From Stenotrophomonas sp. 169 (GTDB taxonomy: Bacteria > Pseudomonadota > Gammaproteobacteria > Xanthomonadales > Xanthomonadaceae), in NCBI RefSeq assembly GCF_014621775.1, contig NZ_CP061204.1:1818501-1882500 (forward strand): 64,000 bases of DNA, in the 5' to 3' direction. Shown one piece after another: positions 27,135-57,874 of this stretch. Both the position numbers and the translations under genes were made by a program. Within the stretch, counting starts at the first letter, position 1. The number at the start of each line of letters is the position of its first letter. Below the pieces are notes generated by a model. That model was not told where the DNA came from. It searched no databases and was given only the letters and a program-made list of their open reading frames with translations.

Positions 27135-27455
27135 ATGATCAAGAAGACGACCAAGAAGAGTGCTCAGAAGCCCGCGCCGCCGCCGACCCGTAAACGCTAT
27201 GGCGAGGAGTTCAAGGTGCAGGCGCTGGAGCGTGCTCGGCGCGATGGTGTAGCCCAGGCTGCGCAGGACCTCGGCCTGCAGGCTCAGCAGCTCTACACGT
27301 GGCGAGCCCGCGCACAGGAGAGGGATTCGCTCAGCGAGGAGCAACGCACGGCCCAGGCGGACCTGGCCAAGCTCAAGCGCGAAGTGGCGCGGTTGTCCGA
27401 AGAGAACGACTTCCTAAAAAAAGTGGCGGCGCACTTCGCCAAGGGTTCCAAGTGA
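27135..27455 (+). CDS. IS3-family transposase OrfA
   Basis: 106-aa DNA-binding subunit. A helix-turn-helix (RYGEEFKVQALERARRDG ... AAQDLGLQAQQLYTWR) is followed by a leucine-zipper-like helix (LAKLKREVARLSEENDFLKK). ATG at 27135 is chosen because AAGGTG lies just upstream; an earlier in-frame ATG at 27087 lies inside the terminal repeat. The A-run at 27416-27422 precedes the stop and would allow a -1 shift to make the OrfAB transposase. Confidence 0.9.
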   Translation: MIKKTTKKSAQKPAPPPTRKRYGEEFKVQALERARRDGVAQAAQDLGLQAQQLYTWRARAQERDSLSEEQRTAQADLAKLKREVARLSEENDFLKKVAAHFAKGSK

Positions 27456-28297: not shown

Positions 28298-28327
28298 CCC
28301 CGTGTCCATGATTGGGGGGCTAGATCA

Positions 28328-30202: not shown

Positions 30203-30576
30203 TTGTACTCCTTCCGGCAGTGCTAGGCCAAAATGCGGACTGACGGCCCGAATATCATTACGTGAGTCGTCCTGGTCGTGGGGTGATTCCCACCGACTTT
30301 AGCGGGTAGGGAGGTGCGGCGAAAGTGGCGAGCGGGATGTGCGGCAACGTGGCTCGGGCGGTCACCCAAATCGTAGTCGGCCCTCTCCAGCTTGGAACAC
30401 TGTCGAATGGGACTGAATTATGTCCCGGACGGAATTTGAGCAGGTTACGGTCCGCGCCGCATTCTATGAGGCTGTGGTGGCGGTCGTTTGAAGGACTATT
30501 GACAACAGCACTCGCCGCACTCAATCTCCGCGACGGGGACACGCGCGCTCACTGTGAAGCGCGCTACAGGGATGAC
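30203..30576. other. 374-bp intergenic region between the defence and secretion loci
   Basis: This gap separates the divergent OLD nuclease and ABC exporter and should hold both promoters. I could not assign confident -35/-10 pairs. Open frames through it have no recognisable protein features. No palindromic SMAG unit is present. Confidence 0.5.
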
Positions 30577-34160: not shown

Positions 34161-34194
34161 GCTCCGGGCACTACAACTACTTGGGAAAGCGGGC

Positions 34195-34707
34195 ATGTTC
34201 GAAGGCATGAATCCAGATCAGCAACAGCGGGACGAACAATGGCAACAGGTTTCTCGTTTGTTCAAGATGGCCATGTGGCTTAGCGCATGCCTTGCGCTGG
34301 CCGCAGAAGCGATCCACCGCCTGCCGATGGTCAAGCAGCTGATAGAAGATGAGCGCGCTGATGACGCGCGTGCATGGGTGTACGTGGCTCTGATGTACCT
34401 GGTGTCCGTGCCCCTGCTTTTTCTTCGTATGCGCCGTGCGCTGTCCGGGTTCAAGCCGCCGGACAATAGCCTGTCCACCCGGGTATTTGTCGCAAGCGCG
34501 GGCGCTTTGATCTGCATCGGCCTCATCGTGCTACCGGTTATCGTTCTTGAGTGGGGTCCCAGCGCCGCACTTCGGGGACAGAGCCTCTATCACCTCCTTT
34601 CGGGAAATGTACTTGGCACGGCGCTGGTTGGTGGAGTACTCGGCTACGGCGCAGCCCTGGCCGCATGGATGCTTTTCTGCGGCGTGCCCAAGGTTGTTCT
34701 GCGGTAG
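34195..34707 (+). CDS. unknown four-helix membrane protein in the type I secretion operon
   Basis: 170-aa hydrophobic protein that I do not recognise. Predicted membrane segments are MAMWLSACLALAAEAI, VYVALMYLVSVPLLFL, ASAGALICIGLIVLPVIVL and VLGTALVGGVLGYGAALAAWM, with a charged Gln-rich N-terminus. It starts 34 bp after the HlyD-type gene and precedes the RTX gene by 180 bp, so it is probably co-transcribed and may protect the producer or assist export. An internal ATG four codons downstream is an alternative start. Confidence 0.7.
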   Translation: MFEGMNPDQQQRDEQWQQVSRLFKMAMWLSACLALAAEAIHRLPMVKQLIEDERADDARAWVYVALMYLVSVPLLFLRMRRALSGFKPPDNSLSTRVFVASAGALICIGLIVLPVIVLEWGPSAALRGQSLYHLLSGNVLGTALVGGVLGYGAALAAWMLFCGVPKVVLR

Positions 34708-34887
34708 CGGTAGATGCGTGGCTTGGCCGCCACGGACGTGCGCACAGGGGGGGGAAGTGCCAGCTAATTGAGGCGGCGCATACCCGCCCCACCAAGAATT
34801 GCATGACCGACTGCGACTCCGCCCTGCCTGCGCGGCGCGGGCACGACGAATTGTACGATCGATTCACCACAACAAAGGAGTGTTCCA

Positions 34888-42189: not shown

Positions 42190-42213
42190 GGTTAGATACA
42201 GAGATACACGGGG

Positions 42214-42244
42214 TCTGGGGGCGGCTTACTGGTCGCCCCCCAGA
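42214..42244 (+). terminator. GC-rich hairpin after the RTX gene
   Basis: TCTGGGGGCG and CGCCCCCCAGA pair around a short loop with one bulged C, 25 bp after the RTX stop. No T-run follows, so it is a possible transcript end or stabiliser. Confidence 0.5.
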
Positions 42245-42426
42245 TCACTCGCGGCTTCGTGCGGTCGGAAAGGCACGTCGGTGAGAATGGGGCGCTCTCC
42301 CGCGCAGCTATCACGTTATGCGCTCTGCCATACCTACACCTCAGTCATCAAAAGCACCTGCCAAAGTTTGGCTAGATGGCTACGGGGGCTAAGATACTAT
42401 TCCGAACATCTGCCAAGGATGACGTG

Positions 42427-42669
42427 ATGGAAGAAGAAATCCAGAAAGCTGATGAGAAAAAACGAGGCAAGACTTAGCTTGAGCTGTTCTTGGCTAACAA
42501 GTTAACCGCCCTGTTGTTGTTTCTGTCCGTTGCTGTAGCGGTAATTACCGCGTACGTCAGGTCCCAGCCAGTCGATATGGGCCGCGATCCAGGCGCACGG
42601 ATGAATGCAATTTTCATGGTCTACTTGGCATTTCTTGATGAGTGGGGCTGTGTAAGAGCATCCAAGTAA
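42427..42669 (+). pseudogene. small membrane-protein gene with an in-frame stop
   Basis: ATG at 42427 reads MEEEIQKADEKKRGKT, then TAG at 42475, then in the same frame LELFLANKLTALLLFLSVAV continuing AVITAYV and on to TAA at 42667. The charged start plus one membrane helix and short tail looks like a small membrane protein inactivated by one nonsense change. Family not recognised. The 237 bp before it hold only the hairpin after the RTX gene. Confidence 0.45.
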
Positions 42670-42834
42670 GGGCTTGGTACATTGCTCACGGCTGTGGGCT
42701 TGGCCCTCTCGCTCATCGATATGGCTGGGCAGCCCGCCGGCGCTTGGCACGCGATTAGAGATGCGTTCCGCCTGTAGTTTCCAATTGTCAGGTATTGGAA
42801 ACGGTGAACGTAGCTTACGTTCATCCTTGAAAGC

Positions 42835-43278
42835 ATGAATGCTCCAGAAGCTCCCACTGTCCGTGCCGTCTTCGCCGCTCGCTTGAAGGAGCATCGGCAA
42901 GCGAACGGCCGCAGTCAAAAGGCCTTAGGAGTGGCATGGGCTGCCAGAGGATGTGGCCGCGGTCCGAATCAACAGATGCGAACGCGCCGTACACGATTGC
43001 CATAGCGAGATCGCCCAGAAGCCTGCGCAGGCGCTTGGGGTGTCTGTGGCATATCTCTGACTGAGACCGATGAACTCGCTGAGTTGATTCAAGAGTTCAC
43101 GCGCCTGCCCGCGTCGGAGCAGCAGGCCGTCCTGCAGGAACTTAGGAAGCGGTTGCTCCTAGCGCTAGCGCTAGCGCGGCGCCAGCTGCTGGGCGGCAGT
43201 CGCAAGGCTCTATTTATCAACGCCTTCGGCCCTGTAGCGGCGCACTCGTGTCCGATAGTGCCAATCGGACAAGCTTGA
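42835..43278 (+). pseudogene. XRE-family regulator with two frameshifts
   Basis: The first frame reads TVRAVFAARLKEHRQANGRS and QKALGVA; after a one-base shift HGLPEDVAAVRINRCERAV and EIAQKPAQALGVSVAYL follow; after a second shift LTETDELAELIQEFTRLPAS and EQQAVLQELRKRLL complete it. Rejoined, this is a full small helix-turn-helix regulator of the phage-repressor type. It matches the layout of the remnant at 24.3 kb. Translation cannot give a working protein. The last 30 residues after RKRLL are unlike the family and may be read-through. Confidence 0.7.
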
Positions 43279-43382
43279 CGCCGGGCCTCACGTATTGTCC
43301 CGGGCGGCTACGCCCGAGTGAATGGGTCTTCGCGGAAGCGGCACCTTCAGGCATGCCAAGAATCATGCCGGTCGTCTGTCTG

Positions 43383-43724
43383 TTATGCAGACCAACAGTA
43401 GAGTGGGCTTCCCCAAACCCCGTGCGCGCCCAGCATCTCTTTGTCGATACCCCAGAACGCGTAAAATTGATCATTCTCTGGGCGGTACACCAGCCACTTC
43501 CCATCCAGTTCCGCAATGCAGAGACCTGAAATCGCACTGCCCAGCTCGAATCCAGGAAGCCCCGGGGCCATCACGATCGCTGTGAGTGGAAATGGGTCGC
43601 GTCGATTCGAAACGATTTCGCGACTCAGGTCCTTGAGATACGCATCTGGATCTACCTCGGCACCGACGTAGACATCCTCGGAGAGCCGCAAATGCCGATC
43701 CAGGATCTGATCAACATCAACCAT
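43383..43724 (-). CDS. hypothetical 113-aa protein
   Basis: I do not recognise this protein. It starts MVDVDQILDRHLRL with AAGGAG eleven bases upstream. It is acidic, soluble, with no signal peptide or membrane helix; the second half is rich in aromatic residues (KWLVYRPENDQFYAFWGID). Size and composition recall small immunity-like proteins, but no toxin gene is next to it. It is divergent from the response regulator that follows, with about 170 bp between starts. Confidence 0.6.
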   Translation of the reverse strand: MVDVDQILDRHLRLSEDVYVGAEVDPDAYLKDLSREIVSNRRDPFPLTAIVMAPGLPGFELGSAISGLCIAELDGKWLVYRPENDQFYAFWGIDKEMLGAHGVWGSPLYCWSA

Positions 43725-43897
43725 GGTTGTGGTCTCTCCTTAAGCGCCGACGGCTTAGGATAGTGCAACGTCCGCGCGGCCGCTTTCCGGCGGGGCCATG
43801 GGTTCCACGGTTACAATAGCTGAGACCTCGTAAGCGACGGCTACGCCGCAGGCGAGGGGGCGGCTGATCTGGTCCCTGAGACACGATGGAGGCATCA

Positions 43898-44614
43898 ATG
43901 GAGTCGGGCTCATCGGAACGGCCCAAGAGGGTCCTCGTGGTCGAAGACGACCTTGAGTTGCGCGAACAGATACTGGTCCCGGATCTGGCCGACTTGGGCT
44001 TTGACGTGCGGGCGGCGGGCAGCGCACTGGAAATGTATCGGCACCTGATGAGTGCTGAAATAGATGCGGTCGTGCTCGACGTTGGATTGCCGGACGAAGA
44101 CGGCTTCAGCGCGCTTGCCCATCTACGGCGGAGCACGGACATCGTCGTTGTGTTGCTCACGGGCCGATCGGGCAGCGTGGACCAGATACGGGGACTGGAT
44201 GGGGGCGCAGACGCATACCTGGTCAAGCCCATCGAGACCGAGGTGCTTGCGGCGACATTACGTAGTGTTTTGCGCCGACGTGGGGCAGGGGTGCCCAACG
44301 GGGCGATTGCCAAGGCGCTGAAGGCCTCCGGCTGGGAGCTTGCCTTGGACGGCTGGCGGCTCACCTCGCCCGAGCGCAAGCAGATTCAACTGTCACACGC
44401 AGAGCTATTGCTGCTCGCAGCGCTCATGCGCACGCCGGGATCGGCCATTTCGAGAGAAGACCTGACGCGCGGCATTGTCGCTGAGCTTCCCGAGTTCGAT
44501 CCCTACCGCCTTGAGATGGTCATGCACCGTCTTCGGCGGAAGGTGGAGGAGGGCTGCGAGCGCGCGCTGCCGGTCAGATCCATTCGATCGGTTGGCTACG
44601 CATGGACGTCATAA
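43898..44614 (+). CDS. OmpR-family response regulator
   Basis: 238-aa transcription factor. The receiver domain shows the acidic pair VVEDD, phospho-acceptor Asp in VVLDVGLPDEDG, Thr in LLTGRSG and Lys in LVKPIET. The C-terminal winged helix covers about residues 140-238 (LSHAELLLLAALMRTPGSAI, MVMHRLRRKVEEG, RSIRSVGYAW). ATG at 43898 is chosen because GGAGG lies five bases upstream; an ATG at 43886 would lie in that site. No kinase is adjacent; the closest one is at 56.4 kb, after the two giant envelope genes on the same strand, and is the likely partner. Confidence 0.92.
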   Translation: MESGSSERPKRVLVVEDDLELREQILVPDLADLGFDVRAAGSALEMYRHLMSAEIDAVVLDVGLPDEDGFSALAHLRRSTDIVVVLLTGRSGSVDQIRGLDGGADAYLVKPIETEVLAATLRSVLRRRGAGVPNGAIAKALKASGWELALDGWRLTSPERKQIQLSHAELLLLAALMRTPGSAISREDLTRGIVAELPEFDPYRLEMVMHRLRRKVEEGCERALPVRSIRSVGYAWTS

Positions 44615-44664
44615 GCCGTCTTTGATTTATTTCGTTTTATTTCACGCGATGCAAACATCCGTGA

Positions 44665-44693
44665 TTGAGTGCTAGAAGCCCCCTGCTTATAGT
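44665..44693 (+). promoter_or_regulatory. sigma70-like promoter of the surface-protein operon
   Basis: TTGAGT, a 17-bp spacer, then TATAGT lie in the 225-bp gap between the response regulator and the DUF11-type gene, about 145 bp upstream of its start. A long leader would result. The AT-rich stretch just upstream (44620-44645) could hold the response-regulator site. Confidence 0.55.
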
Positions 44694-44839
44694 GCGCGCC
44701 TCGCAATGGGGCGCTCGGCCACTCGCCGCAGCAACGTCTTTCTCTATCTCCGACCGCTGTCACCAGCGGTGCGCCTGTGTGCGCGTGCGTGACTTTCGTA
44801 AATGGCTTGTGCCGTCGCACCAACAGGGGTTCCAAGGAT

Positions 44840-47800
44840 ATGGCTCGTCAGCTCGCACGCTCTTCGCAAGGGCGCATCCGTCGTTGCTTCGGTTTTGGCC
44901 TTTGGTTGATGGTGCTGATGGCCCTGGCGCCGCTGACCGCGTTGGCCCAGCTCGCTCCCCGCCACAGTTTCAACGCGCGCGGCGACGTCGCCATGGTGGG
45001 CAACGCCTTGCTGACTTGCGCCACCTCAGGAACCGGCTCGGCGAACTGCGCAAGCCAGCGGATGAGCAACAGCACCGGCGGCAACGGCAACCGGGTGATG
45101 GAGTACATCAACGTGGACGCTGCAGGACTCCCCGCCACTGTGCCGGAGAATTCGTCTGCAGCCACGCTGACCTTGCCAGCGGGGGCACGGGTCCGGTCCG
45201 CCGGCCTGTACTGGGGCTCCCGAGCCGACAACACCGATGCAGCGCGGCGGACTATCCAGCTGCGGGTGCCGGGCGGCACCTACCGCTCAGTGACCGCCAG
45301 TGCGGCCGACCTGAACACCTTCAATGATCAAGGCGATACCAACGCCAACCGGCCATACACCGCTTACGCGGACGTGACCGCACTGGTCGCCGCCTCAGGG
45401 AGCGGCACGTATTACGCGGGCGGGTTGACGGCTGTCACCGGGAATGGCGGGGGACTGGGAAACTACGGCGGCTGGGCGCTCATCGTGCTCTACGAAGACA
45501 ACAGCAAGCCTTTCCGCCGTTTGATGGTGTTCGATGGCAACGCGGGCTACGTCAGCGGCGGCAACGCGCAATCCGCGTCGGTAACGGGTCTGCTGACGCC
45601 GGCTAGCGGGCCGTTCAATGCCTTCATGGGCGCTTTGGTGTGGGAGGGCGACGGCGATATCACCGGCGATGCGTTCCAGCTGAGCGGCAACGGCAACGTT
45701 CTCAATGCAGGTGCTGTCAGCGATGGCTTGAGCCCGGCGAACAACTTCTGGAACAGCGGCATCACCCGGCTGGGTGAGCGCTTCACCAACAAGGCGCCCG
45801 ACTACGCCAACCAGTTCGCAGTCGATTTGAAGTTGGTCGACATTTCCAACAATGCGGCGAACGCATCCGCAGCCCGTCCGCGGTTGGCCAATAGCGCCAC
45901 CGGCGCCACCCTGACGTTCACCAGCACCGGTGACGCGTACTTCCCGCATGCATTGGTGTTCGTGACTGACTTGTTCGTGCCGGATCTGGTCAGCTCACTG
46001 GACAAGACGGTGCGCAATGTAACCCATCCGACCGGCCCACTGCGGCGCGGGGACATTCTCGAATACACCGTCTCTTTCCAAAACAGCGGCCAAGACGGCG
46101 CTACGCGCACGACGGTTCGAGACCCGATCCCAGCCCACACGGCGTATGTCCCAGGCAGCCTGCTCGTAGTGTCCGACGATGGCCGAGGCTTGACGGGGAA
46201 CAGCGCTGCTGAAACCGATGCGGCGGGAGATGATGTGGCTGAGTTTGACGCCGCTGGCAACCGCGTGGTGTTCCGCGTCGGCGCAGGTGCCAACGGGACG
46301 AATGGGGGACTGTTGACGCCGGGCCAGGGTGCAACGTTGCGCTTCCAGGTCAAGGTCAGTGACGCGGCTCCGGACACGGCGCAGATCGTCAACAACGCGG
46401 AGGTCACGCACAACGGTCAGACGGTCGAGGTGCCGGACGACTACGAGGGACGTGCCTCGGCCACCATTGGGCCGGTCGAAGTACCCGCCATCGCCGCGGT
46501 GAACTTTTGCCCTGCGGACGGGGGTATTTTTGGCGTAGTGAATGGCGCCGGTTTCCGACGCTTTGTTCCGGGGACCAGCACCGACGAGACCGTCGGAGAC
46601 CTCGCCGTCAGTCTGCCAGGCAACCTCAACGGCTTGATGGTGGATGCTGCGCGCAACCGCCTGTTGGTCCACACCCGGGCTAACGGTTCGGGCGGCGAAG
46701 TGTGGGCGTATGACGCCAACAACGGTGGCTGGTATCAGACCGGCGCGGTGATCGCCGCGGATCTGCCGCGCGCGGGCATGACCCGAGACGGCGTCGGCTA
46801 CATGGTGACCTCGGTCACCGGCAGGACCGCCCGCATGTATCGGCTCGACCCTGCTGGAACGTTTGGCTACACCGCCGGCGCTCCCACCACACTGACCTAT
46901 GACGTCGCTCCGTCAGACACCGGCTCGGGCGACATCGCCTTCGACCAAGACGGGGTTGGCTGGCTTGTCGCCGGGTCCGATCTTTACCGGGTCGATGTGA
47001 ACGCAGGCACCGCGACCCTTCAACAGCGCTTTACCGGCGCGCCGTCCGGTGCTTTTTATGCCGGTGCGGCATTCGGCGCCGACGGAAAGCTTTACGTCGT
47101 GGTCAACGCGACGGGCAACTACTACGCGATGGATCTGACCACCGGCACGATGACGCTGGCGGGCAACTCCTCTTTGACCAGCGGTGGCGACCGCGGCCGC
47201 GATCTCGCGTCTTGCAGCTTCCCGGCCATTGCGCCGCCGCAGCTGCAAGTCAGCAAGGTGCTGAGCACGGTCAACGGCCAATCGCCGGGGACCAGCGTCG
47301 CGCCAGGCGATGTTCTGGAATACGAGATCCGTATCAGCCACGTCGCCGGCTCCCAAGCCGCAACGCTCTTTGCAGGGGATGTAGTCGAAGGCGTGCCAAC
47401 GAATACGACGTTCCTTCCGGCTGGAAGCGACTTCACGTGCACCGCCGCGGCATGTTCGAACACCAACGCGGTCAACATCACGGCCGGTGGCTCGGCGACG
47501 TTGCGCTTCCGTGTGCAGGTGGCCACGACGATGCCCGGCGCGGCGACAGCGATCCGCAACGAAGTCGCTGTGCGAGGCAATACGCCCGTGGATTGTGCCG
47601 CGACGGGCAATGATTGCGAGGAGACTACGCCGCTGATGCTGACGCCCGGTCTGACGTCGACCAAAGCGCTGACCCTGGTCAACGGTGCTGCGCCCAGTGG
47701 CACGGTTGCCGTGGGCGATATGCTGACCTACGTCGTCACAGCGACGAACACCGGCAATATGGTGCTGCCGTCTGTCGTGGTGGCCGATGCACGCATCGTG

Positions 47801-50800
47801 CCGGCCACTCTTACCTGCGCGGATCTGGCGCCTGCCGCCGCGTGCGTGCTGACCGGTGTCTACACGGTCACCCAGGCGGACGTGGACAGCGGCGTGGTCC
47901 GGAATACGGCCTCGATCACCACGCCGGGCACCGATGGGGTTTGTCCTGTTGGCAACAGCACGGCATCGTGCAACCCCACCCTGGACACGCCAGTGGACCC
48001 GGCGCTTCCTGCGTTGACGATCGTCAAGACCGGCAGCATCCCGAGTACGTCCACCGTGGGTGGCACGATGACGTACAGCTTTGTCGTGACCAATACGGGC
48101 AACGTCACGTTGAACGCGGTTGCGGTTGTCGATGACAAGCTGACGGCAGCGCCCGTGTGCCCGGTGACCACGTTGGCGCCCGGAGCGGCGACCACCTGCA
48201 CGGGCACCTACACCCTGGTTCAGACCGATCTGGATGCGGGCCGCGTGGTGAACCGCGCGCGCGCCGAAGGCGTGCCGCCGGCAACGCCTGGCAACCCCAA
48301 CCCGCCCCGCGTGCCCAGCCCGGAAGACGAAGAGATCACGGACCTGCCGTCGGCCCCGGCCCTCACCATCGTGAAGTCTGCTGGCCTGCCCAGTGGAACC
48401 ACCGTGGGCAGCACCATCGCCTACGCGTTCCTGGTCACCAACACCGGCAACGTGACACTGCGCGACATTGCGGTGGTCGATGCCAAGCTGGCAACGGCAC
48501 CGGTTTGCCCGGTCACCACGCTCGCGCCGGGCGCGACGACTACGTGCACGGGCACCTACACGTTGGTGCAGGCGGATCTGGACGCAGGCCGGGTGGTGAA
48601 CACGGCCCGAGCCGAAGGCACCCCGCTTTCCACGTTCAGTAATCCGACCCCACCGCGCGTGCCGAGCCCGGAGGACGAGGAAACCGTCGATCTGCCTGCG
48701 TCCCCGGCAATGAGCATCGTCAAGACCGCAGGCCAGCCGAGCGGGACGGCCGTGGGCAGCTCCATCCGGTATTCGTTCCTGGTGACCAACACCGGCAATG
48801 TGACGTTGAACGACATCGTGGTGGTGGATGACAAACTCGCGGCCGCCCCCACATGCCCGTTGACGACGTTGGCACCGGGCGCAGCCACGACCTGTTCGGG
48901 TATCTATACGCTGACCCAGGCCGACGTGGACGCAGGGCGGGTGGTCAACGCTGCCCGGGCCGAAGGTACGCCGCCGGCGACCCCGGGCAACCCCAACCCG
49001 CCGCGTGTGCCCAGCCCGGAAGATGAGGAAACAACCGACCTGCCGTCGGACCCGTCGCTGTCGATCGTGAAAACGGCCGGCACGCCGACCGGCGCCACCG
49101 TCGGAAGCACGATCGCCTACAGCTTCCGGGTGACCAACATCGGCAATGTAACCTTGACCGAGGTCGCGGTGATCGACGTCAAGCTGAGCACGCCGCCGGC
49201 CTGCCCGGCGACCACGCTCGCCCCTGGCGCCACGGTGCTCTGCACCGGCACGTATACCCTGACGCAGGCGGATCTCGACGCTGGGCAGGTGCTCAATTCG
49301 GCGCATGCCGAAGGTGCCCCGCCAGCAACCCCGGGTAACCCGACCCCTCCGCGGGTTCCGAGTCCCGAGGACGAGGTGATCACGAATCTGCCGTCCGCGC
49401 CGTCGCTTTCGATCGTGAAGACGGGCAGTACCCCTTCGGGCACTACGGCGGGCAGCACCATCGGCTACACCTTCGTCGTGACCAATACGGGCAACGTTAC
49501 CCTCAGTGACATCCGCGTTGTGGATGCGAAGTTGGCCGCTGCGCCGGTTTGCCCGGTGACCACGCTGGCCCCCGGCGCCGTGACCACGTGCACGGGCAAC
49601 TACACCCTGACCCAGGTCGATCTTGACGCCGGCCGCGTGGTGAACCGCGCCTACGCCGAAGGCGTGCCGCCGGCGAGCCCGGGCAATCCCAACCCGCCGC
49701 GTGTGCCAAGCACGGAAGACGAGGAGATCGTGGACCTGCCGGCGGCGCCGTCGTTGAGCATCGAAAAGACGGCCGACCCCGCCAGTGGCAACGCAGTGGG
49801 CAGCACGATCGCCTACAGCTTCCTGGTCACCAATACGGGCAACGTGACGTTGAGCGCGCTCACGGTCGTGGACAGCAAGTTGGCCACTGCACCGAGCTGT
49901 CCGGTCAACACGCTGCCGCCGGGCGCAAGCACGGTATGCACGGGAACCTACACGCTTGACCAGGCTGATCTGGACGCGGGCGAAGTGGTCAATACCGCCC
50001 ATGCCGAAGGGACGCCGCCGTCAACGCCGGGCAACCCCGGTTCGGTCCCGGTGAAGAGCCCGGAAGACACGGTGCGCACGCCGGTGGCGCAGGCGCCGGC
50101 GCTCGAATCGACCAAGCAGCTTCTTCGCAATGCCGATGAAGACGGTTCGGGCTCGGTGACGTTCAATGACACCCTCACCTACACCGTCACTGCCAGCAAT
50201 GTGGGCAATACGACGCTGAAAGATGTCGTTGTGACCGACAGCAAGATCACGCCGGCAAGCATCACCTGCGGCAGCCTTGCGCCAGCTGCACGCTGCGTTC
50301 TGGAAGGCACGTACCGGGTCAGCCAGGCCGATGTGGTTGCAGGCAACGTCCGCAACGTTGCGCTCATCGCCACGGCAACGCCGGGCCTTTGCGGCACCGG
50401 GACAGATAACCCTGCGTGTGCTCCAAGCCTCGATATCCCGGTCCTGGCCTGGGAGATCGACGCAGAAGATGATCGCGACCGCACGCCGCAGAACACGCCG
50501 GTGACTACCCCCGTTCTGCAGAATGACCTGCTGGACGGCAAGGCGGTAGATCCGGCATTGGTGCAGGTCAGTGAGCACATGCCGCCCACCAATGGTTCGA
50601 TCATCGTCAATGACGACGGCACCGTCACCTACACGCCGAACCCCGGTTTCTGGGGCGAGGACAGCTACGAGTACCAGATCTGCGAGCGGGCCAACCCGAC
50701 CAACTGCACCAACGCTCGCGTGGTCATCGCCATCGATCCCAACCGGGTCGAAGCGATCGACGATGCAGGCCGCACCGAGCCGGGTGTTCCTCTGCAACTG

Positions 50801-52753
50801 GTCGTGGTCGGCAATGACCGCAGCCACGGTGCGCCACTGGATCCGGAATCCGTGTTGCTGATGACGCCGCCGTCAAACGGCAGTGTCACGTGCGCGGCAG
50901 GCAGCTGCAGCTACATGCCGACGGCCGGTTTTGCCGGCACCGACACCTACGTCTACCGGGTATGCGATACGTCGTACCCCACGGCGCTGTGTGCTGACGC
51001 AACCGTTACGGTGGAAATCGAAGGCACGGCCTCGCTCCGGCTGACGAAGTCGACCCCCTCGCGTGACATCAAGACGGGCGATCTGGTTCGTTACAGCGTC
51101 ACGATCGAGAACGTCGGCAGCGTTGATCTGTCCGGCGGCAGTGTCCTAGATACCCCGCCGGCTGGCTTCACCTACGTCGAAGGGTCGCTGACTGCCAGCG
51201 ACGCACGATCGAACGTTGTAGTGAGCGGCTTTAATCCGGTTCGCTTCGACGGGATCGATCTGAAGGTCGGCGACCAGATGACAGTGGTCTACCTGATGCG
51301 CGTCGGCGCAGGGGTTCAGCGCGGGGTGCAGATCAACCGTGCACAGGCGCTCGATGGAACGGGTCAGCCGGCGTCCAACGTTGCGACCGCGGAAGTAGTA
51401 CTCGATGCCGATCCGTTGCTGGACGAGAGCCTGGTGTTCGGAACCGTGTTCGATGACCGGGACGGCGACGGTTGGCAGGACAGTGCAGCATTGACGGGCT
51501 TGAAGGTGCAGGGCGGTTTCGCCGCAGGCGACTACGTCGCGGGATCGACCTTGGTTGACAAGGGCGATGGCAATGGGATGTCGCCGGTCGCCGATGCGAG
51601 CGCGCCGTTGTTGCGCGGCCTTTCCTTGGGCCGCTTGAGCGGACGCCAGTCGGTGGCCGACCCGGCGGACCGCCACGTGGTGGTGATTCGCCAGCGCTTG
51701 CGCACTGCTGCCTTCACGGATGACTTTGTACTGGAGAGCGACCAGGGCATCCGCGTTCGCGTGGCCGCCGATGGCAGTACGCGTGTCGAGACGCGGGGGG
51801 AGGCAGCGAAGGGCCTGACTGCCGCAGCACCAGTCGTGGAGCGTCGTACCGTCGTCGAGGGCAACGAGGTCGTTGTGGATTACATCATCCGCAACGAAGG
51901 CATCGATGAGCGGGGCATTCCGGGCGTCCGCCTGGCGTCAGTGGAAGGGTTGCTGATCGAGACCGACCAGTTTGGCCGCTACCACCTCACCGGAGTCGAT
52001 GGTGGCGCGTGGACGCACGGGCGCAACTTCATCCTGAAGGTGGATCCTTCCACGCTGCCGGCCGGCGCTGAGTTCACCACGGCCAATCCACTGCTGCGGC
52101 GGGTAACCCCCGGCGTCCCGGTGCGCTTCGATTTCGGAGTGCGCCTGCCTGAACCGATCCGCGCCGACGCGCAGGCGATGGAGTTGGAACTGGGTGAGGT
52201 GCTTTTCGCCCCGGACAGTGCGGTCGTGCAGTCACGCTACGGTGCGGTGCTCGAAAAGATGGCCGCGCAGGTGCAGAGCTACAACGGCGGCGACGTCCTG
52301 ATTCGGGGCGACGGCAATCAGGCGCTGGGCTACCAGCGCGCGGTCGCTGTTCGGGATGCGCTGATCGCACGCATTCCGCCAGAAGTGGCTGAACGCACCT
52401 TTGTCAGCGTGCGCGGGGACCTGGGCGATCCCGCCAGTCGCTCCCTCACCCTGCAGGGCGCTGACATCCTTCTTGGGACCGTGCTTTTTGATACGGACAA
52501 GGCCGAGATAAAGCCGGAGTTCGGCCCCCTGATGGAGCAGGTAGCGGCGGCCACCGTGCAGACCAAGGGGCGCCTGATTCTGACCGGCCACACCGATGTG
52601 CGCGGTTCTCATGCCTACAACAAGCAACTCGGGCTCCGCCGTGCCCAGGCTGTGCAGCGCGCCATTGCGGCGAAGCTGCCGCCCGGGACGGTCGAGGCAG
52701 TGAACGTGGAATACAACGATGACCCGGCAACCCCTGCCGAGCACGGTCGCTGA
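44840..52753 (+). CDS. giant surface protein: DUF11-type repeats, Ig-like domains and C-terminal OmpA domains
   Basis: 2637-aa exported protein. Signal peptide: basic MARQLARSSQGRIRR, then GFGLWLMVLMALAPLTALA. Residues about 40-380 are a beta-rich domain (SAGLYWGSRAD, GWALIVLYED). A DUF11 unit follows, then a propeller-like segment (560-790), further DUF11 units, an exact array of six 116-residue units (1057-1752), another DUF11 unit, two cadherin-like units (GTVTYTPNPGFWGEDSYEY), a DUF11 unit near 2070, an SdrD-like segment (FGTVFDDRDGDGWQD near 2199) and two OmpA-type modules; the last has VLFDTDKAEIKPEF and GHTDVRGSHAYNKQLGLRRA with the Asp and Arg that grip peptidoglycan. So the C-terminus is periplasmic and the long array may extend outward or span the periplasm. 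ATG at 44840 follows AAGGA. The next gene starts 19 bp after its stop. Confidence 0.88.
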   Translation: MARQLARSSQGRIRRCFGFGLWLMVLMALAPLTALAQLAPRHSFNARGDVAMVGNALLTCATSGTGSANCASQRMSNSTGGNGNRVMEYINVDAAGLPATVPENSSAATLTLPAGARVRSAGLYWGSRADNTDAARRTIQLRVPGGTYRSVTASAADLNTFNDQGDTNANRPYTAYADVTALVAASGSGTYYAGGLTAVTGNGGGLGNYGGWALIVLYEDNSKPFRRLMVFDGNAGYVSGGNAQSASVTGLLTPASGPFNAFMGALVWEGDGDITGDAFQLSGNGNVLNAGAVSDGLSPANNFWNSGITRLGERFTNKAPDYANQFAVDLKLVDISNNAANASAARPRLANSATGATLTFTSTGDAYFPHALVFVTDLFVPDLVSSLDKTVRNVTHPTGPLRRGDILEYTVSFQNSGQDGATRTTVRDPIPAHTAYVPGSLLVVSDDGRGLTGNSAAETDAAGDDVAEFDAAGNRVVFRVGAGANGTNGGLLTPGQGATLRFQVKVSDAAPDTAQIVNNAEVTHNGQTVEVPDDYEGRASATIGPVEVPAIAAVNFCPADGGIFGVVNGAGFRRFVPGTSTDETVGDLAVSLPGNLNGLMVDAARNRLLVHTRANGSGGEVWAYDANNGGWYQTGAVIAADLPRAGMTRDGVGYMVTSVTGRTARMYRLDPAGTFGYTAGAPTTLTYDVAPSDTGSGDIAFDQDGVGWLVAGSDLYRVDVNAGTATLQQRFTGAPSGAFYAGAAFGADGKLYVVVNATGNYYAMDLTTGTMTLAGNSSLTSGGDRGRDLASCSFPAIAPPQLQVSKVLSTVNGQSPGTSVAPGDVLEYEIRISHVAGSQAATLFAGDVVEGVPTNTTFLPAGSDFTCTAAACSNTNAVNITAGGSATLRFRVQVATTMPGAATAIRNEVAVRGNTPVDCAATGNDCEETTPLMLTPGLTSTKALTLVNGAAPSGTVAVGDMLTYVVTATNTGNMVLPSVVVADARIVPATLTCADLAPAAACVLTGVYTVTQADVDSGVVRNTASITTPGTDGVCPVGNSTASCNPTLDTPVDPALPALTIVKTGSIPSTSTVGGTMTYSFVVTNTGNVTLNAVAVVDDKLTAAPVCPVTTLAPGAATTCTGTYTLVQTDLDAGRVVNRARAEGVPPATPGNPNPPRVPSPEDEEITDLPSAPALTIVKSAGLPSGTTVGSTIAYAFLVTNTGNVTLRDIAVVDAKLATAPVCPVTTLAPGATTTCTGTYTLVQADLDAGRVVNTARAEGTPLSTFSNPTPPRVPSPEDEETVDLPASPAMSIVKTAGQPSGTAVGSSIRYSFLVTNTGNVTLNDIVVVDDKLAAAPTCPLTTLAPGAATTCSGIYTLTQADVDAGRVVNAARAEGTPPATPGNPNPPRVPSPEDEETTDLPSDPSLSIVKTAGTPTGATVGSTIAYSFRVTNIGNVTLTEVAVIDVKLSTPPACPATTLAPGATVLCTGTYTLTQADLDAGQVLNSAHAEGAPPATPGNPTPPRVPSPEDEVITNLPSAPSLSIVKTGSTPSGTTAGSTIGYTFVVTNTGNVTLSDIRVVDAKLAAAPVCPVTTLAPGAVTTCTGNYTLTQVDLDAGRVVNRAYAEGVPPASPGNPNPPRVPSTEDEEIVDLPAAPSLSIEKTADPASGNAVGSTIAYSFLVTNTGNVTLSALTVVDSKLATAPSCPVNTLPPGASTVCTGTYTLDQADLDAGEVVNTAHAEGTPPSTPGNPGSVPVKSPEDTVRTPVAQAPALESTKQLLRNADEDGSGSVTFNDTLTYTVTASNVGNTTLKDVVVTDSKITPASITCGSLAPAARCVLEGTYRVSQADVVAGNVRNVALIATATPGLCGTGTDNPACAPSLDIPVLAWEIDAEDDRDRTPQNTPVTTPVLQNDLLDGKAVDPALVQVSEHMPPTNGSIIVNDDGTVTYTPNPGFWGEDSYEYQICERANPTNCTNARVVIAIDPNRVEAIDDAGRTEPGVPLQLVVVGNDRSHGAPLDPESVLLMTPPSNGSVTCAAGSCSYMPTAGFAGTDTYVYRVCDTSYPTALCADATVTVEIEGTASLRLTKSTPSRDIKTGDLVRYSVTIENVGSVDLSGGSVLDTPPAGFTYVEGSLTASDARSNVVVSGFNPVRFDGIDLKVGDQMTVVYLMRVGAGVQRGVQINRAQALDGTGQPASNVATAEVVLDADPLLDESLVFGTVFDDRDGDGWQDSAALTGLKVQGGFAAGDYVAGSTLVDKGDGNGMSPVADASAPLLRGLSLGRLSGRQSVADPADRHVVVIRQRLRTAAFTDDFVLESDQGIRVRVAADGSTRVETRGEAAKGLTAAAPVVERRTVVEGNEVVVDYIIRNEGIDERGIPGVRLASVEGLLIETDQFGRYHLTGVDGGAWTHGRNFILKVDPSTLPAGAEFTTANPLLRRVTPGVPVRFDFGVRLPEPIRADAQAMELELGEVLFAPDSAVVQSRYGAVLEKMAAQVQSYNGGDVLIRGDGNQALGYQRAVAVRDALIARIPPEVAERTFVSVRGDLGDPASRSLTLQGADILLGTVLFDTDKAEIKPEFGPLMEQVAAATVQTKGRLILTGHTDVRGSHAYNKQLGLRRAQAVQRAIAAKLPPGTVEAVNVEYNDDPATPAEHGR
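48008..50095 (+). repeat. six in-frame tandem 348-bp repeats in the DUF11-type gene
   Basis: Units start with codons for P(A/S)(L/M)(T/S)I(V/E)K at 48008, 48356, 48704, 49052, 49400 and 49748, exactly 348 bp apart. Each encodes 116 residues with shared landmarks: VTNTGNVTL or close variants, CPVTTLAPGA, GTYTL(T/V)Q, DLDAG(R), and in units 1-5 P(S)PPRVPSPEDE-like hinges. The exact period shows expansion by unit duplication. Confidence 0.93.
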
Positions 52754-52772
52754 GAAGGAACAGGGGACAGCC

Positions 52773-55700
52773 ATGAAAATTCAAATGAAGCTGCTGGATT
52801 GCGCGCTCATCAGCCTGCTTGCCGGCGGGATGGGGCTGGGAACGGCCTACGCCCAGGAACGGGCTGCTGACTGCACGGACAGCGGTTGCCGCTCCGAAGA
52901 CGGCGTCCTCTTCCAGCTCCGGACCCGAAGCTACGACGAGCCAGTGACGCGGGGAACAGCGCCGAGCTCAGGGTCTCACGTGCTGGCACCCGATCGCCGG
53001 GTCCAGGTAGCGTTGGCGCAGCCGGGTCGCGCCGTCGCCAGTGGAAAGTTCTCGATCGATCTACCGAACGGTGGCGCGGTCTGGGCCACCGAAGATCCCA
53101 CGCTGGGGCAGCCGACGCTGTCCATCTCGGCGCCGTCGATCGTTGCCTTCGACGGCACCCGCGTGACCAAGCCGGTCCAGTTCTACGTTCGCAGCAACTA
53201 CCCGCGCTTTATCGACCGATACGAGTTGAGCATCCATCGGGCAGAAGATGTGGACCTGATCGAGCCGCTGGCCCGCGTACCCCTTGAGGTGGCCGCCGTG
53301 TCAACCGGTGAGTGGGACGGCGAGCTCCCGGGCCGGTACCGCTACCGGGCGGGGGACGAGCTGGTCTACGTGCTGCGTGCATACGATTCGGACGGGCGCT
53401 TTGATGAAACCCAACCGCGTCAGCTGCAGTTGGTGCGGCCTGAAGAGGCGGAGCGCGGCGCAGTGTTGCTGCGTCAGAGCGTGGAAAAGAGCTTGGGTAC
53501 TGCGCTGACCACGGAGCAAGCGCAGCAGCAGAGCCTGCTTGACGAGGTTTTCGCCATCGATGGCCTCCGTCAGCAGAATATCCCGATCCACGGTTCCCGT
53601 ATCCGGATCAATGGACGGAACGTGCCCGAAGGCTTGAGCCTGAAGATCAATGGCGACACCTATCCGGTGGACATGGAGCGGAAGTTCGTTGCCGAGTACC
53701 TGTCCCCGATCGGCTTGAGCTCGTTCCTGATAGAGCTGGAAGGCAAGGGCGAGCCCATCCGCAGCACGCTGGATGTCGATGTCACCGGGCGCTACCTGTT
53801 CGGGGTGGGCCTGGCGGACGTGACGGTGTATCAGAACAAGGTGGGCGGCTCTGTCGACGCAACGGCGGTGAACGAACGTTACGCCGACGACGTGATCAGC
53901 GATGGCCGCTTGGCGTTCTATTTGAAAGCCAAGACGCAGGGCCGCTACCTCATCACCGCTCAGGCCGATACGACCGAGCGTGACCTCGAAGCGCTGTTCA
54001 CGGGGTTCACAAAGGCTGACGCGACGGACATTTTCCGCCGCCTCGACCCGGATCTGTACTACCCGGTGTATGGCGATGATTCCAACGTTTATCGGGACGT
54101 GGACACCATGGGCCGGTTCTACGTGCGCATGGAGTGGGACAAGAACCAAGCCCTCTGGGGCAACTTCGCCACAGGGATCACCGGCACCGAATATGCACAG
54201 TACGTGCGTTCACTGTACGGCGCAGCCTTGGACTGGCGTTCGCGTGCGAGCAACGCGTGGGGAGACCCCGCGACCATGCTGCGCGCGTTTGCCTCCGAAG
54301 CGCAGACCGCGCCGGGTCACAGTGAGTTCCTGGGCACCGGGGGCAGCCTTTACTACCTCCGACATGCCGACGTCCTGCCGGGCTCCGAGCAGGTCGTACT
54401 GGAGATCCGCGACCTGACCACGGGGCGGGTGGAAAGCACGGTATCGCTGCAGCGCGGCGCAGACTACGAGATCGATGAACTGCAGGGCCGCATCCTGTTG
54501 ACCCGACCCCTCGCGCAGGTCACCCGTGAGAACATGCCCTCGATAACGCGCGATACGCCGCTGGACGGCTACCAGCAACGCTTGGTCGTAGATTACGAAT
54601 GGGTGCCCTCCGAGTTCGATGCCGACGACATGACGGCAGGCCTGCGAGCCAAGCACTGGTTCGGTAACCACGTGGGTGTGGGTGTCACCCAGGTCAACGA
54701 GAATCGGTCGGGCGAGGACTACTCGCTTTCCGGTGCAGATCTGACGCTGCAGGCAGGCAAGGGGACCTTCCTGAAGATCGAGCACAGCCGCACCGAGTCG
54801 AGCAGCGCACCGCTGTTCTTCTCTGACAACGGTGGCTTCACCTTCCAGCGTATCGATGGGGCCGGGCCGCAAAGCGGCGAGGCCACGGCGGTCGAAGGCC
54901 GCGTGAACCTCAAGGAGCTGGGCTGGACCGCCCAGGATTGGAGCGCGGCCGCCTGGTGGCGGGAGGTGGGAGCGGGATATTCCATCAGTCGCTACGACAC
55001 GGCAGCCGATGTCACCGAGTACGGTGCAGAGGTGCTGGGTCAGCTCCATAGAGACCTGTCGCTCTACAGCCGTGTCAGCCGCGCCGAGCGGGGCAGCGAG
55101 GCGCTGGAACAGGTGCAGGTGACCGCGCAATGGCGGATAGGTGACTTCGACGCATTGACCGCCGAGCTGCGGCGAACGGATGAGGAGCGCGCAACGGGCG
55201 ATGCCGCTGGCACCCTTGGCGCGATCAAGTACACCCGCCGAGTGGGCACGGCGTTGGACGTGTACGGCGTCGCGCAGGTCACGCTTGACGATGACGAAGG
55301 AAAGTACGCTGCCAACGATGCCTACACGCTGGGAAGTAAATACCTTTTCGGTGACAGCTCGACCGTCGGCTTGGAGACGACGCAGGGGGACCGGGGAGAC
55401 TCCACTCAGGTCGATGCCGAGTACCGGGTCAACGCGCAGCAGAGCATCTATGGCAATTACACCCTTTCGACGGACAGTACCAGCTACGACTCCTTGTTCA
55501 ACCCGGAGCGCCAGTCCGGCTGGACGGCTGGTCAGCGTTGGCGCATGTCCAACCAGGTGAACGTTTTCAATGAGAGCCAATACCTGAAGAATCCGGACGA
55601 GTCCGGCCTGGCGCATACCTTCGGTATGGACTTCTATCCCGCCCAAGGGTGGAACCTGGGGTTCACGCTGCAAGACGGCGAGCTGACCAACAACGACGGG

Positions 55701-56429
55701 GGCAATGTTGATCGCCGCGCGGTCAGCGTGACAGGTGGGCGCACCTCGGTCGTGACGGATTGGCAGAGCAAGATGGAATGGCGTCGCGATACCGGTGCCG
55801 AACGCCGTGAACAATGGGTTGTCACCAACCGCCTGACCTACCGCTTCAATGACAGCTGGCGCATGGCAGCGCGCTTGAACTGGTCAGACACGGACGACGA
55901 GCTCGACCCCACGCAGGGAGCCCGCTTCATTGAGGGCAACGTCGGCTTCGCGTGGCGCCCTTGGGAAAGCACGCGCTGGGGAATCTTTGGCCGATACACG
56001 TATCTGTATGACCTGTCCACGCTGGGTCAGATCAACGGCACGAACGTCGACCAGAAGACCCAGGTGCTCTCCTTCGAGGGCGTCTACCGGATCGATCAAC
56101 GATGGGAGGTGGCGGCCAAGGTGGCCCAACGCGAGGGCGAAGTCCGGATGGGACGAGGTTCTGGTCCGTGGTTCGACTCGTCGACTACCTTCATGGCGGG
56201 GCAGTTGCGGTATGACCTTTTCCAGGCGTGGCATGGGCTGGCGGAATACCGCACGCTGCAGGTCAAGGACGGTGGCACCCGACAGGGTTGGCTGGTCGGG
56301 CTGGACCGTGACGTCGGCAAAAATTTCCGGGTGGGCGCAGGCTACAACTTCACCGACTTCAGCGATAAGCTCACCGACTTCGACTACGATCACCGCGGCT
56401 GGTATCTCAACGTCGTGGGCACCTACTGA
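52773..56429 (+). CDS. large predicted outer-membrane beta-barrel protein
   Basis: 1218-aa exported protein. Signal peptide MKIQMKLLDCALISLLAGG with cleavage after AYA. Residues 30-400 are beta-rich domains (DGTRVTKPVQFYVRSNYPR; IRINGRNVPEGLSLKINGD). From about 430 to the end it has alternating amphipathic strands with many aromatic girdle residues, ending in GWYLNVVGTY, a terminal aromatic usual for outer-membrane barrels. There is no TonB-box or plug signature, so a TonB-dependent receptor is unlikely. It starts 19 bp after the giant repeat protein and is followed 5 bp later by the kinase gene, so the three are one operon. It probably anchors or exports the repeat protein, by position. Family not recognised. 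Confidence 0.8.
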   Translation: MKIQMKLLDCALISLLAGGMGLGTAYAQERAADCTDSGCRSEDGVLFQLRTRSYDEPVTRGTAPSSGSHVLAPDRRVQVALAQPGRAVASGKFSIDLPNGGAVWATEDPTLGQPTLSISAPSIVAFDGTRVTKPVQFYVRSNYPRFIDRYELSIHRAEDVDLIEPLARVPLEVAAVSTGEWDGELPGRYRYRAGDELVYVLRAYDSDGRFDETQPRQLQLVRPEEAERGAVLLRQSVEKSLGTALTTEQAQQQSLLDEVFAIDGLRQQNIPIHGSRIRINGRNVPEGLSLKINGDTYPVDMERKFVAEYLSPIGLSSFLIELEGKGEPIRSTLDVDVTGRYLFGVGLADVTVYQNKVGGSVDATAVNERYADDVISDGRLAFYLKAKTQGRYLITAQADTTERDLEALFTGFTKADATDIFRRLDPDLYYPVYGDDSNVYRDVDTMGRFYVRMEWDKNQALWGNFATGITGTEYAQYVRSLYGAALDWRSRASNAWGDPATMLRAFASEAQTAPGHSEFLGTGGSLYYLRHADVLPGSEQVVLEIRDLTTGRVESTVSLQRGADYEIDELQGRILLTRPLAQVTRENMPSITRDTPLDGYQQRLVVDYEWVPSEFDADDMTAGLRAKHWFGNHVGVGVTQVNENRSGEDYSLSGADLTLQAGKGTFLKIEHSRTESSSAPLFFSDNGGFTFQRIDGAGPQSGEATAVEGRVNLKELGWTAQDWSAAAWWREVGAGYSISRYDTAADVTEYGAEVLGQLHRDLSLYSRVSRAERGSEALEQVQVTAQWRIGDFDALTAELRRTDEERATGDAAGTLGAIKYTRRVGTALDVYGVAQVTLDDDEGKYAANDAYTLGSKYLFGDSSTVGLETTQGDRGDSTQVDAEYRVNAQQSIYGNYTLSTDSTSYDSLFNPERQSGWTAGQRWRMSNQVNVFNESQYLKNPDESGLAHTFGMDFYPAQGWNLGFTLQDGELTNNDGGNVDRRAVSVTGGRTSVVTDWQSKMEWRRDTGAERREQWVVTNRLTYRFNDSWRMAARLNWSDTDDELDPTQGARFIEGNVGFAWRPWESTRWGIFGRYTYLYDLSTLGQINGTNVDQKTQVLSFEGVYRIDQRWEVAAKVAQREGEVRMGRGSGPWFDSSTTFMAGQLRYDLFQAWHGLAEYRTLQVKDGGTRQGWLVGLDRDVGKNFRVGAGYNFTDFSDKLTDFDYDHRGWYLNVVGTY

Positions 56430-56434
56430 GGGTT

Positions 56435-57874
56435 ATGGGAACGAATCTGCCGGGGCATCCAACCACCGCTGACGGTTCAGACGGCGATCAGCGACCCGCA
56501 GGGGGCGGGGCGCTTTCCATGCTGAGCCTTCCTGTGCGTTGGCTCAGGAATGTCCCGGTGGCGGACCCGGTCGATCGGCGGAACGCGCCCATGCTTCAGC
56601 TGGTGCTGTTGCTGCTCGGCGGGCTTCCCCCCTTGGCTTGGGCCTATCGGGCTTTTGCCATGGATGTGCCTTGGCGGGAGGGCGAGCTGGGCAGCATGGC
56701 GTTGAGCCTGCTCTTGAGCGCCGTCGCCCTGGCCGGGTTCGCTTTGGTGCGGCTGGGGCACTTCCGTTGGGCGGCGTATCAGCTTCTGGCCGTCTTTGCT
56801 GTGTCGGTGTGCCTGTCGTATGCCGGCAGCGGGTTTGGCTCCCAGCGGTTCGAACAACCTGTGTTGACGGTCTGTATGGTCATTGGGGCGCTGGTTGTGG
56901 GTCGCGGCGCATTGTGGGGCGTGACGATCTCCATATGGGTCGCCTTCGGACTAGGGGTCTGGAGGGACCGGGCGTCCGATGGCACGGCGGAGCTGATCGT
57001 CGATGGAATCATCAGCGGGGTCATCTTCTTGCTGATCGCCGTGGTGCTGGACCGCGCCAGCTCTGCACTCCGTCAGAGTCTGGTGGAGGCGAAGGCGAAG
57101 GGGAGAGACGCGAGCGAGGCCTATGTGCGTCTTCAAGGCGAGGTCGAGCAGCGGCGCAAGGTCGAGCAACAACTGGTCCATGCGAGAAAAATCGAAGCAG
57201 TGGCGCGGCTGGCGGCCGGCTTGAATCACGACTTCAATCACCTCTTGTCGCTGATTCTGGGCTACGTTCAACAAGCCAAGCGCGGGCAGACGTCCGAAAA
57301 GGTCGCTGCGTCTTTGGCCGGCGCGGAGACTGCCGTTCGCAAGGCGGATACCTTGAGCCGCCGGCTTCTGACGTTCAGCCGACAGAGCGACACCGTCATT
57401 GATCGCCACGAGGTGCGGGACGTGGTGGATGATCTCGCGCCGCTGCTGCGACAGACGGTTTCCCCAGGCGTGCGGATCCATACAGAAATTCCCGCTGATC
57501 TTTGGGTGGACTTCGACCGCGATCAGCTCGGGCTCATCTTGTTGAACTTGCTGAGCAACGCGGACGACGCCATGGGCGGGGAGGGCGATATACGCCTGAC
57601 TGCTCAGGAGACGGCCAGCGGCGTCTGCGTTTCATGTATCGATACAGGTCCGGGAATCGAGGCGGAACTGCAGGCCCGGATTTTCGAACCGTTTGTCACG
57701 ACGAAGGCGTCCGGCCAAGGGACAGGCCTGGGCTTGGCCATGGCGAGGGACCTGATGTCTGCCCATGGGGGTAGCATTGCCGTCGAAAGCACGCTGGGCC
57801 GCGGCACCATCTTCCGTTTGCACTTCGCTCAATCTCCACCCGCTGTCGTTTCACGGGCCGTCGAGCTGTCCTGA
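56435..57874 (+). CDS. membrane sensor histidine kinase
   Basis: 479-aa kinase. About six membrane helices cover residues 48-210 (LQLVLLLLGGLPPLAWAYR; LSLLLSAVALAGFALV; LIVDGIISGVIFLLIAVVL), with almost no periplasmic loop, so it may sense the membrane itself or a small lipid-soluble signal. A coiled linker leads to the H-box (VARLAAGLNHDFNHLLSLI), N-box (LILLNLLSNADDAM), and G-boxes (CIDTGPGIEAEL, GQGTGLGLAMARDL). There is no receiver domain. It starts 5 bp after the barrel gene. Likely partner: the OmpR-type regulator at 43.9 kb upstream of the operon. Confidence 0.92.
   Translation: MGTNLPGHPTTADGSDGDQRPAGGGALSMLSLPVRWLRNVPVADPVDRRNAPMLQLVLLLLGGLPPLAWAYRAFAMDVPWREGELGSMALSLLLSAVALAGFALVRLGHFRWAAYQLLAVFAVSVCLSYAGSGFGSQRFEQPVLTVCMVIGALVVGRGALWGVTISIWVAFGLGVWRDRASDGTAELIVDGIISGVIFLLIAVVLDRASSALRQSLVEAKAKGRDASEAYVRLQGEVEQRRKVEQQLVHARKIEAVARLAAGLNHDFNHLLSLILGYVQQAKRGQTSEKVAASLAGAETAVRKADTLSRRLLTFSRQSDTVIDRHEVRDVVDDLAPLLRQTVSPGVRIHTEIPADLWVDFDRDQLGLILLNLLSNADDAMGGEGDIRLTAQETASGVCVSCIDTGPGIEAELQARIFEPFVTTKASGQGTGLGLAMARDLMSAHGGSIAVESTLGRGTIFRLHFAQSPPAVVSRAVELS

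Follow-up and report, generated by a model that had tools for sequence, protein, structure and literature searches.

Within a 64,000-bp stretch of the complete 4.16-Mb chromosome of Stenotrophomonas sp. 169 (contig NZ_CP061204.1, C1:1818501-1882500; the window in what follows), a run of four genes encoding a response regulator, a giant surface protein, an outer-membrane beta-barrel protein and a histidine kinase probably specifies a very large two-partner cell-surface adhesin, built like a split autotransporter and equipped with a private two-component switch. The reading is suggested by sequence comparisons, namely the conserved pairing of giant and barrel genes, the recurrent flanking of such pairs by relatives of the kinase and regulator, the presence of the same kinase/regulator family beside other adhesins, and tandem repeats in the promoter regions.

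The initial annotation of this locus was right about the gene order, the single (forward) strand, and the gaps of 19 bp between giant and barrel and 5 bp between barrel and kinase. The regulator gene (43886..44614, +) encodes 242 amino acids (aa) with a receiver domain (65.6 bits for Pfam Response_reg) and a winged-helix DNA-binding domain (44.2 bits for Trans_reg_C), both above the curated cut-offs and hence of OmpR/PhoB type; its second ATG, at 43898, is the start used in the initial annotation, and by inspection it keeps the acidic residues, the phospho-aspartate and the lysine. After 225 bp, a distance at which the regulator need not share a transcript with its neighbor, comes the gene for the predicted giant surface protein (44840..52753, +; 2637 aa from an ATG chosen by inspection, or 2658 aa in the longest open reading frame (ORF), which opens at GTG 44777). 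This protein has a hydrophobic N-terminal segment, an array of Ig-like domains in which Pfam recognizes eight DUF7507 stretches as well as DUF11 and Big_9 domains, and at its C terminus an OmpA domain of the peptidoglycan-binding type (PF00691; 52484..52681, +; residues 2570-2635 of the 2658-aa ORF), scoring 46.8 bits against a cut-off of 27.2. Its partner (52773..56429, +; 1218 aa from ATG 52773) matches no Pfam family at E 0.001 and is predicted to be an outer-membrane beta-barrel protein from structure models and generic outer-membrane barrel matches. The membrane histidine kinase (56435..57874, +; 479 aa) scores 90.1 bits for HATPase_c, above the cut-off, and 21.6 bits for HisKA, below the cut-off of 26.9, and by inspection retains the H, N, G1, F and G2 boxes. 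Its hydropathy leaves little apparent room for a periplasmic domain, and the scan gives four strong peaks where six helices had been claimed. Neither signaling partner has a closer two-component mate, as had been proposed: no other called gene in the window matches the kinase or the regulator (BLAST, 1e-4), and the closest paralogous regulator with an adjoining kinase lies 1.1 Mb away in the same genome.

To place the locus among its relatives, 297 genomes of the window's family were searched with the kinase, regulator and barrel (E cut-offs 1e-40, 1e-38 and 1e-100, with at most about 5, 9 and 2 candidates scored per genome, respectively). Barrels of one kind, here called type A, occur in 102 of these genomes and are mostly 53-71% identical to the window barrel, while type B barrels (~25-30% identical, ~1120 aa) occur in 55, and in the loci read a giant gene of DUF11 or SdrD type precedes the barrel. 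Alpha- and beta-proteobacterial plasmids (from Croceibacterium, Sinorhizobium, Phyllobacterium, Eleftheria and Sulfitobacter) carry giant-barrel pairs too, and in the five annotated stretches read no two-component genes are annotated next to the pairs. The OmpA domain is C-terminal in both type A giants scanned, those of the window and of locus L108; in type B it forms a separate 330-360-aa gene behind the barrel (by Pfam in L067 and L143, by BLAST in 16 of 16 loci, L153-L159 and L184-L192), the Pfam scan of the L067 giant finding no OmpA domain, and in Eleftheria it stands at the N terminus of the barrel. One type B locus, L164 (74-12697), has giant and barrel in a single open frame of 4207 aa, residues 20-3066 of which match a type B giant and residues 3122-4205 a type B barrel, and this fusion argues that the two proteins work together; four more type B matches lie within open frames of 3748-4258 aa, a length that alone is no proof of fusion. 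By these sequence comparisons, giant and barrel are a widespread unit, found mostly without the kinase/regulator pair. In most of the named records among the matches listed, the two genes are called hypothetical protein or TonB-dependent receptor.

The association with the signaling genes was counted over 134 kinases, 129 regulators, 59 type B barrels and 133 type A barrels, the last figure including four matches only 33-34% identical and leaving out the second fragment of one barrel in genome G268. A type A or type B barrel lies within 20 kb of 33 of the 134 kinases, the window's included; without the window, the figure is 32 of 133 against 1.5 expected, and among the closest 23 kinase relatives 16 against 0.37 expected, where expectations assume 4-Mb genomes and uniform positions and the counts, many loci being related, are not independent. 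Type A barrels have a kinase near in 14 cases, a regulator in 14 and both in 12, and nearness to either rises to 13 of 32 among those at least 66% identical to the window's (the window left out), against 2 of 99 for the rest; for type B barrels the corresponding numbers are 17, 24 and 17. The four-gene order recurs exactly, on one strand, in one other genome (L108; 50% identity to the window for the regulator, 57% for the giant, 68% for the barrel and 42% for the kinase, with a barrel-kinase gap of 226 bp), and with the OmpA gene between barrel and kinase in L153 and L154 and, spread over two loci each, in L142+L160, L143+L161, L144+L162 and L146+L163. Elsewhere the arrangement varies (genes in the relatives were called by codon score, which gives approximate starts and can miss genes): the order is kinase-regulator-giant in the type B loci L138-L141; in L107 the regulator is reversed and a gene of 1090 aa precedes the kinase; in L111 the kinase is reversed and two small genes are present; and the type B loci L067, L071 and L072 have an opposite-strand gene of 622-627 aa before the kinase, with a GGDEF domain by Pfam in L067. 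That the four genes form a fixed set is ruled out by the loci that lack the pair; a kinase and regulator split by giant and barrel are nevertheless a recurrent variant of a looser association and not chance. Other genes also occur in these loci: the type B loci L067 and L155 have, between OmpA gene and kinase and on the opposite strand, a gene for a TPR-GGDEF protein, making a link to cyclic di-GMP possible, and in the type A locus L116 (3691-6084) a 797-aa two-component-regulator-propeller protein (Reg_prop, Y_Y_Y) stands between regulator and kinase, genes of similar size (774-797 aa, by length only) lying near the kinases of L110, L112, L115, L117, L134 and L173.

The 101 kinases away from barrels point to a second partner. 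A regulator lies within 3 kb of 83 of them, and among the 83 examined for adhesins (23 in the earlier loci and the best 60 of the remaining 78, the later loci) a YadA-type trimeric autotransporter stands beside 64. It is present in 11 of the 23 earlier loci, by Pfam in ten (L171, L175-L182 and L080) and by word count only in L170, and in 53 of the 60 later loci, 52 of them confirmed by Pfam YadA_head; in 49 of these 53 it is divergent from the kinase. The word count recovered 5 of 5 known cases and picked out 3 of 533 other ORFs, two of which, L170 (22 words) and L093 (17), look truly YadA-type. The paralogous pair in the window's own genome (L085, 1.1 Mb away) likewise adjoins a 1156-aa YadA-type gene, and in L167, L172 and L173 a DUF11-type giant adjoins the kinase in place of the YadA type. 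Both kinds of adhesin are found side by side in L093, where a 1033-aa gene with the 17 YadA-type words (14985-18083) follows a type A giant-barrel-cargo run. The claim that the signaling pair is dedicated to this surface structure is partly supported: the tie to adhesins recurs, but the family goes with adhesins more broadly and not with this kind alone. The initial annotation had named kinase and regulator homologues consistently accompanied by other partners as counting against it, and for most kinase relatives away from barrels this is so. In the regulator tree, the type B label changes 3 times against 21.2 after shuffling and the YadA label 3 times against 12.0. The window regulator falls on a long branch in a group of 19 (11 type A loci and 8 unassigned; Shimodaira-Hasegawa-like approximate likelihood ratio test (SH-aLRT) 93), and in the kinase tree the window kinase is sister to the type B kinases of L138-L141 (SH-aLRT 99).

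A candidate operator lies 11 bp past the regulator stop, just upstream of the giant gene: the tandem repeat TTTATTTC-GT-TTTATTTC (44626..44643, +), with a period of 10 bp, recognized by gap comparison and genome search. In the exact form TATTTC-N4-TATTTC it occurs once in the 4.16-Mb genome, here; five matches appear when one mismatch is allowed, and the backwards pattern gives none with up to one mismatch. The period of 10 bp here, and of 10-11 bp in relatives, fits OmpR/PhoB tandem sites about one helical turn apart. Over 36 same-strand regulator-giant gaps, the mean best match at period 10 is 10.42 of 14 against 8.23 after shuffling, and 8 gaps score at least 12 against 0.1 expected; period 6 also brings 5 of the 36 to at least 12, and other periods 0-2. 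For 26 control gaps, whose upstream neighbor was called as neither a kinase nor a regulator (although both lie further up in L120, and in L184 the gene calling missed a regulator match), the period-10 mean is 8.46 and none reaches 12. Many gaps carry GTGAG-N5/6-GTGAG, sometimes in three copies, the exact ones all facing the adhesin: an exact pair occurs in 13 of the 31 gaps of type B and in 4 of the 12 of type A that have a kinase or regulator, as well as in 5 of 13 YadA gaps, and in none of the 26 controls. With up to one mismatch the numbers are 21, 5, 10 and 2, and for the reversed pattern 1, 1, 0 and 1. When the pair was tested on the 49 later YadA gaps, 16 held it exactly (0.02 expected; 0 reversed) and 33 with up to one mismatch (0.85 expected; 3 reversed). 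Promoter repeats of 10-11 bp are rare where neither kinase nor regulator is directly upstream.

Under the adhesin reading, the giant would be exported through Sec and its Ig-like stalk displayed outside the cell, through or on the large barrel, while the OmpA domain would fix its C-terminal end to peptidoglycan. The kinase, its sensor part seemingly mostly within the membrane, would phosphorylate the regulator; by binding the tandem repeat of 10-bp period that shortly precedes the giant gene, the regulator would set transcription of giant, barrel and kinase, with feedback on the kinase.

The barrel is modeled best by its barrel part (ORF residues 340-1236; 53736..56426, +), for which about 40 long strands are predicted (predicted local distance difference test (pLDDT) 74.5, predicted template-modeling (TM) score 0.62); the whole-length model is poor (pLDDT 67, predicted TM score 0.49), and its fold search returns mixed barrels. 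Absence of a fold from the lists of matches for the two models does not count against that fold. Foldseek puts LptD, Cir and SlpA on top with TM-scores of 0.2-0.3. The name TonB-dependent receptor is rejected, as neither Plug (PF07715) nor TonB_dep_Rec (PF00593) is listed for any of six family members, in a Pfam search whose HMMER filters drop most matches above 0.1, and both are found in a true receptor at 59782-61920 in the window. The same search lists no autotransporter-barrel family by sequence and no POTRA or TpsB-type family for the six; of outer-membrane families with a known barrel it gives only weak matches, to OMP_b-brl and, for three of the members, to YadA_anchor (E 0.06-3). Type V autotransporters and two-partner secretion systems resemble the locus in having a large passenger with a dedicated outer-membrane barrel, as one polypeptide in L164. 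They differ in that the window has separate genes, and so lacks the single passenger-barrel polypeptide of type Va, and in that no autotransporter-barrel or POTRA domain is recognized; type V secretion barrels have 12-16 strands, against the roughly 40 long strands predicted here. The YadA-type (XadA-like) loci of Xanthomonadaceae share relatives of the window kinase and regulator and the 10-11-bp promoter repeats, but their autotransporter is mostly divergent from the kinase and their regulator and kinase are mostly convergent, whereas in the window two giant genes sit between regulator and kinase. The Deinococcus SlpA/S-layer deinoxanthin-binding complex also has a large outer-membrane barrel and is among the best Foldseek matches, but with TM-scores of only 0.26-0.32 and no sequence match. 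The proteobacterial dedicated sortase system (PdsR/PdsS/PdsO) brings together a regulator, a kinase, an OmpA-like protein and a surface target in one locus; here, the window regulator scores 69.8 bits against a PdsR equivalog cut-off of 335.7 and the OmpA match 26.0 against 152.2 for PdsO, both far below, and no sortase is present among the genes scanned.

Some relatives carry an additional, cargo-like gene. Several type A barrels are followed by a gene whose product ends in a DUF11 domain, and in L106 such a gene precedes the giant; among the proteins scanned, some have SpaA-like, CshA or GEVED domains and others lack all three. In 13 of the 15 with a match, the terminal DUF11 is incomplete, reaching positions 80-88 of 114, and the protein ends within 11 residues, mostly 4. 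The exceptions are L118, matched to 64, and L107, whose best stretch is an inner, full domain; in giants, the match to inner DUF11 domains extends to 110-113. This C-terminal signature is shared by L109, L112, L113, L122, L131, L135, L088, L093, L096 and L128, and possibly marks a display signal or a strand-acceptor domain. Other genes that follow type A barrels (a sigma factor, and opposite-strand kinase and receiver genes) are probably neighbors without a relation to them. The window locus itself has no such cargo gene. The same genome harbors a second giant-barrel pair (L106 and L086; G000:C1:3708000-3735000), with a 4530-aa DUF11 frame and a barrel 56% identical to the first; no kinase or regulator match lies beside it, and its giant is preceded by a 723-aa protein with an incomplete DUF11 domain at its end.

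Several observations weigh against a private switch for this adhesin. No kinase or regulator lies within 20 kb of 117 of the 133 type A barrels, and either partner is near only 16 of these and 24 of the 59 type B barrels, so giant genes without the pair, which the initial annotation had named as counting against its proposal, are indeed common; the surface structure can therefore work without the pair. The YadA type is missing from 12 of the 23 earlier loci, among them L145 and L166, and from 7 of the 60 later ones, of which L195-L198, L222 and L247 also lack a regulator, the seventh, L219, being a contig of 3.3 kb. The type A label is no more clustered in the regulator tree than chance would give (9 changes against 10.3 shuffled, with 71 of 500 shuffles as low), and since the window kinase is nearest to type B and its regulator groups with type A, the recent histories of the partners may differ and the pair may have been re-assorted. 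Moreover, the GTGAG element is absent from the window and L108 gaps, the window repeat differs in sequence, TATTTC-N4-TATTTC is common only to these two among the loci compared, and a GTGAG pair with one mismatch occurs in 2 of the 26 control gaps. A rival reading makes the locus a chance neighborhood in a variable stretch, where a mobile giant/barrel pair landed between a regulator and a kinase serving other genes. The pairs on plasmids without annotated adjoining two-component genes, the mostly pairless chromosomal loci and an integrase-core gene upstream in the window would agree with this, but the association far above chance, the order recurring in L108 (and in type B loci with the OmpA gene added), and the tie of the promoter repeats to the presence of the kinase/regulator pair make it highly improbable, and we strongly disfavor it. 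The kinase could also, beyond switching the operon on, be a sensor of envelope or surface assembly, reading proper assembly of giant and barrel and closing a feedback loop. Its position directly downstream of the barrel (5 bp, 226 bp in L108) and similar kinases near type B loci would suit such a role, which nevertheless seems unlikely: kinase relatives accompany YadA-type autotransporters, in which no part of giant or barrel recurs, so that a part-specific assembly signal is unlikely, and no sizeable periplasmic domain is apparent from hydropathy.

The barrel might also be an usher-like platform that assembles Ig-like DUF11 subunits by strand complementation, the giant being scaffold or first subunit. 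Likeness to chaperone-usher systems lies in a large pore that aligns with FimD end to end in one model and in the incomplete Ig-like cargo of relatives. However, the FimD register is unstable between models, covering mostly the C-terminal half in the whole-length one; fold-search Z scores for FimD tie within about 1 with those of mitochondrial barrels; FimD ranks only 44 and 50 among the Foldseek matches listed; no usher family is matched by Pfam (six members) or by profile against PDB chains with E up to 10; no chaperone gene turned up among the neighbors scanned by Pfam, no search being aimed at chaperones; and the cargo gene is missing from the window. We regard this platform as very improbable. 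An even broader proposal, which we put forward only as a long shot, puts giant and barrel at the center of an assembly route of the outer membrane that has yet to be described: a giant pore resembling an usher would display DUF11 Ig-like proteins whose last, incomplete domain is finished by a neighbor's strand, with the giant as peptidoglycan-anchored scaffold, and in Xanthomonadaceae the route would be run by adhesin-specific two-component switches traded with trimeric autotransporters and reading 10-11-bp tandem-repeat operators.

Other features of the window lie upstream of this locus. Directly upstream, a peptidase-C39 ATP-binding cassette transporter, a protein of HlyD type and an RTX repeat protein of 2433 aa form a type I secretion locus (30325-42189), the RTX protein being a second giant secreted protein; the ~1.7 kb from its gene to the regulator (42190-43890) hold only one 113-aa frame (43383-43724, -) by our caller. 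Further upstream (24784-30202), an OLD-type AAA/TOPRIM protein (28325-30202) and then a UvrD-like helicase (24784-26619) are encoded on the reverse strand, presumably the gene pair of a Gabija defense system, with the integrase-core gene (27299-28297, +) between them.

According to a 2013 xanthomonad genome paper, every non-fimbrial adhesin identified in xanthomonads up to that time was secreted by a type V system (PMC3826837). In the open-license literature, we found no title or abstract that deals with the giant-barrel pair or with a family of kinases linked to adhesins in this way. If the reading of the locus as a two-partner adhesin with its own switch is true, the giant-barrel pair would make up a second large class among giant adhesins. 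The kinase/regulator family offers a directly testable rule, whereby locating the pair together with its 10-11-bp repeat would point to the controlled adhesin next door.

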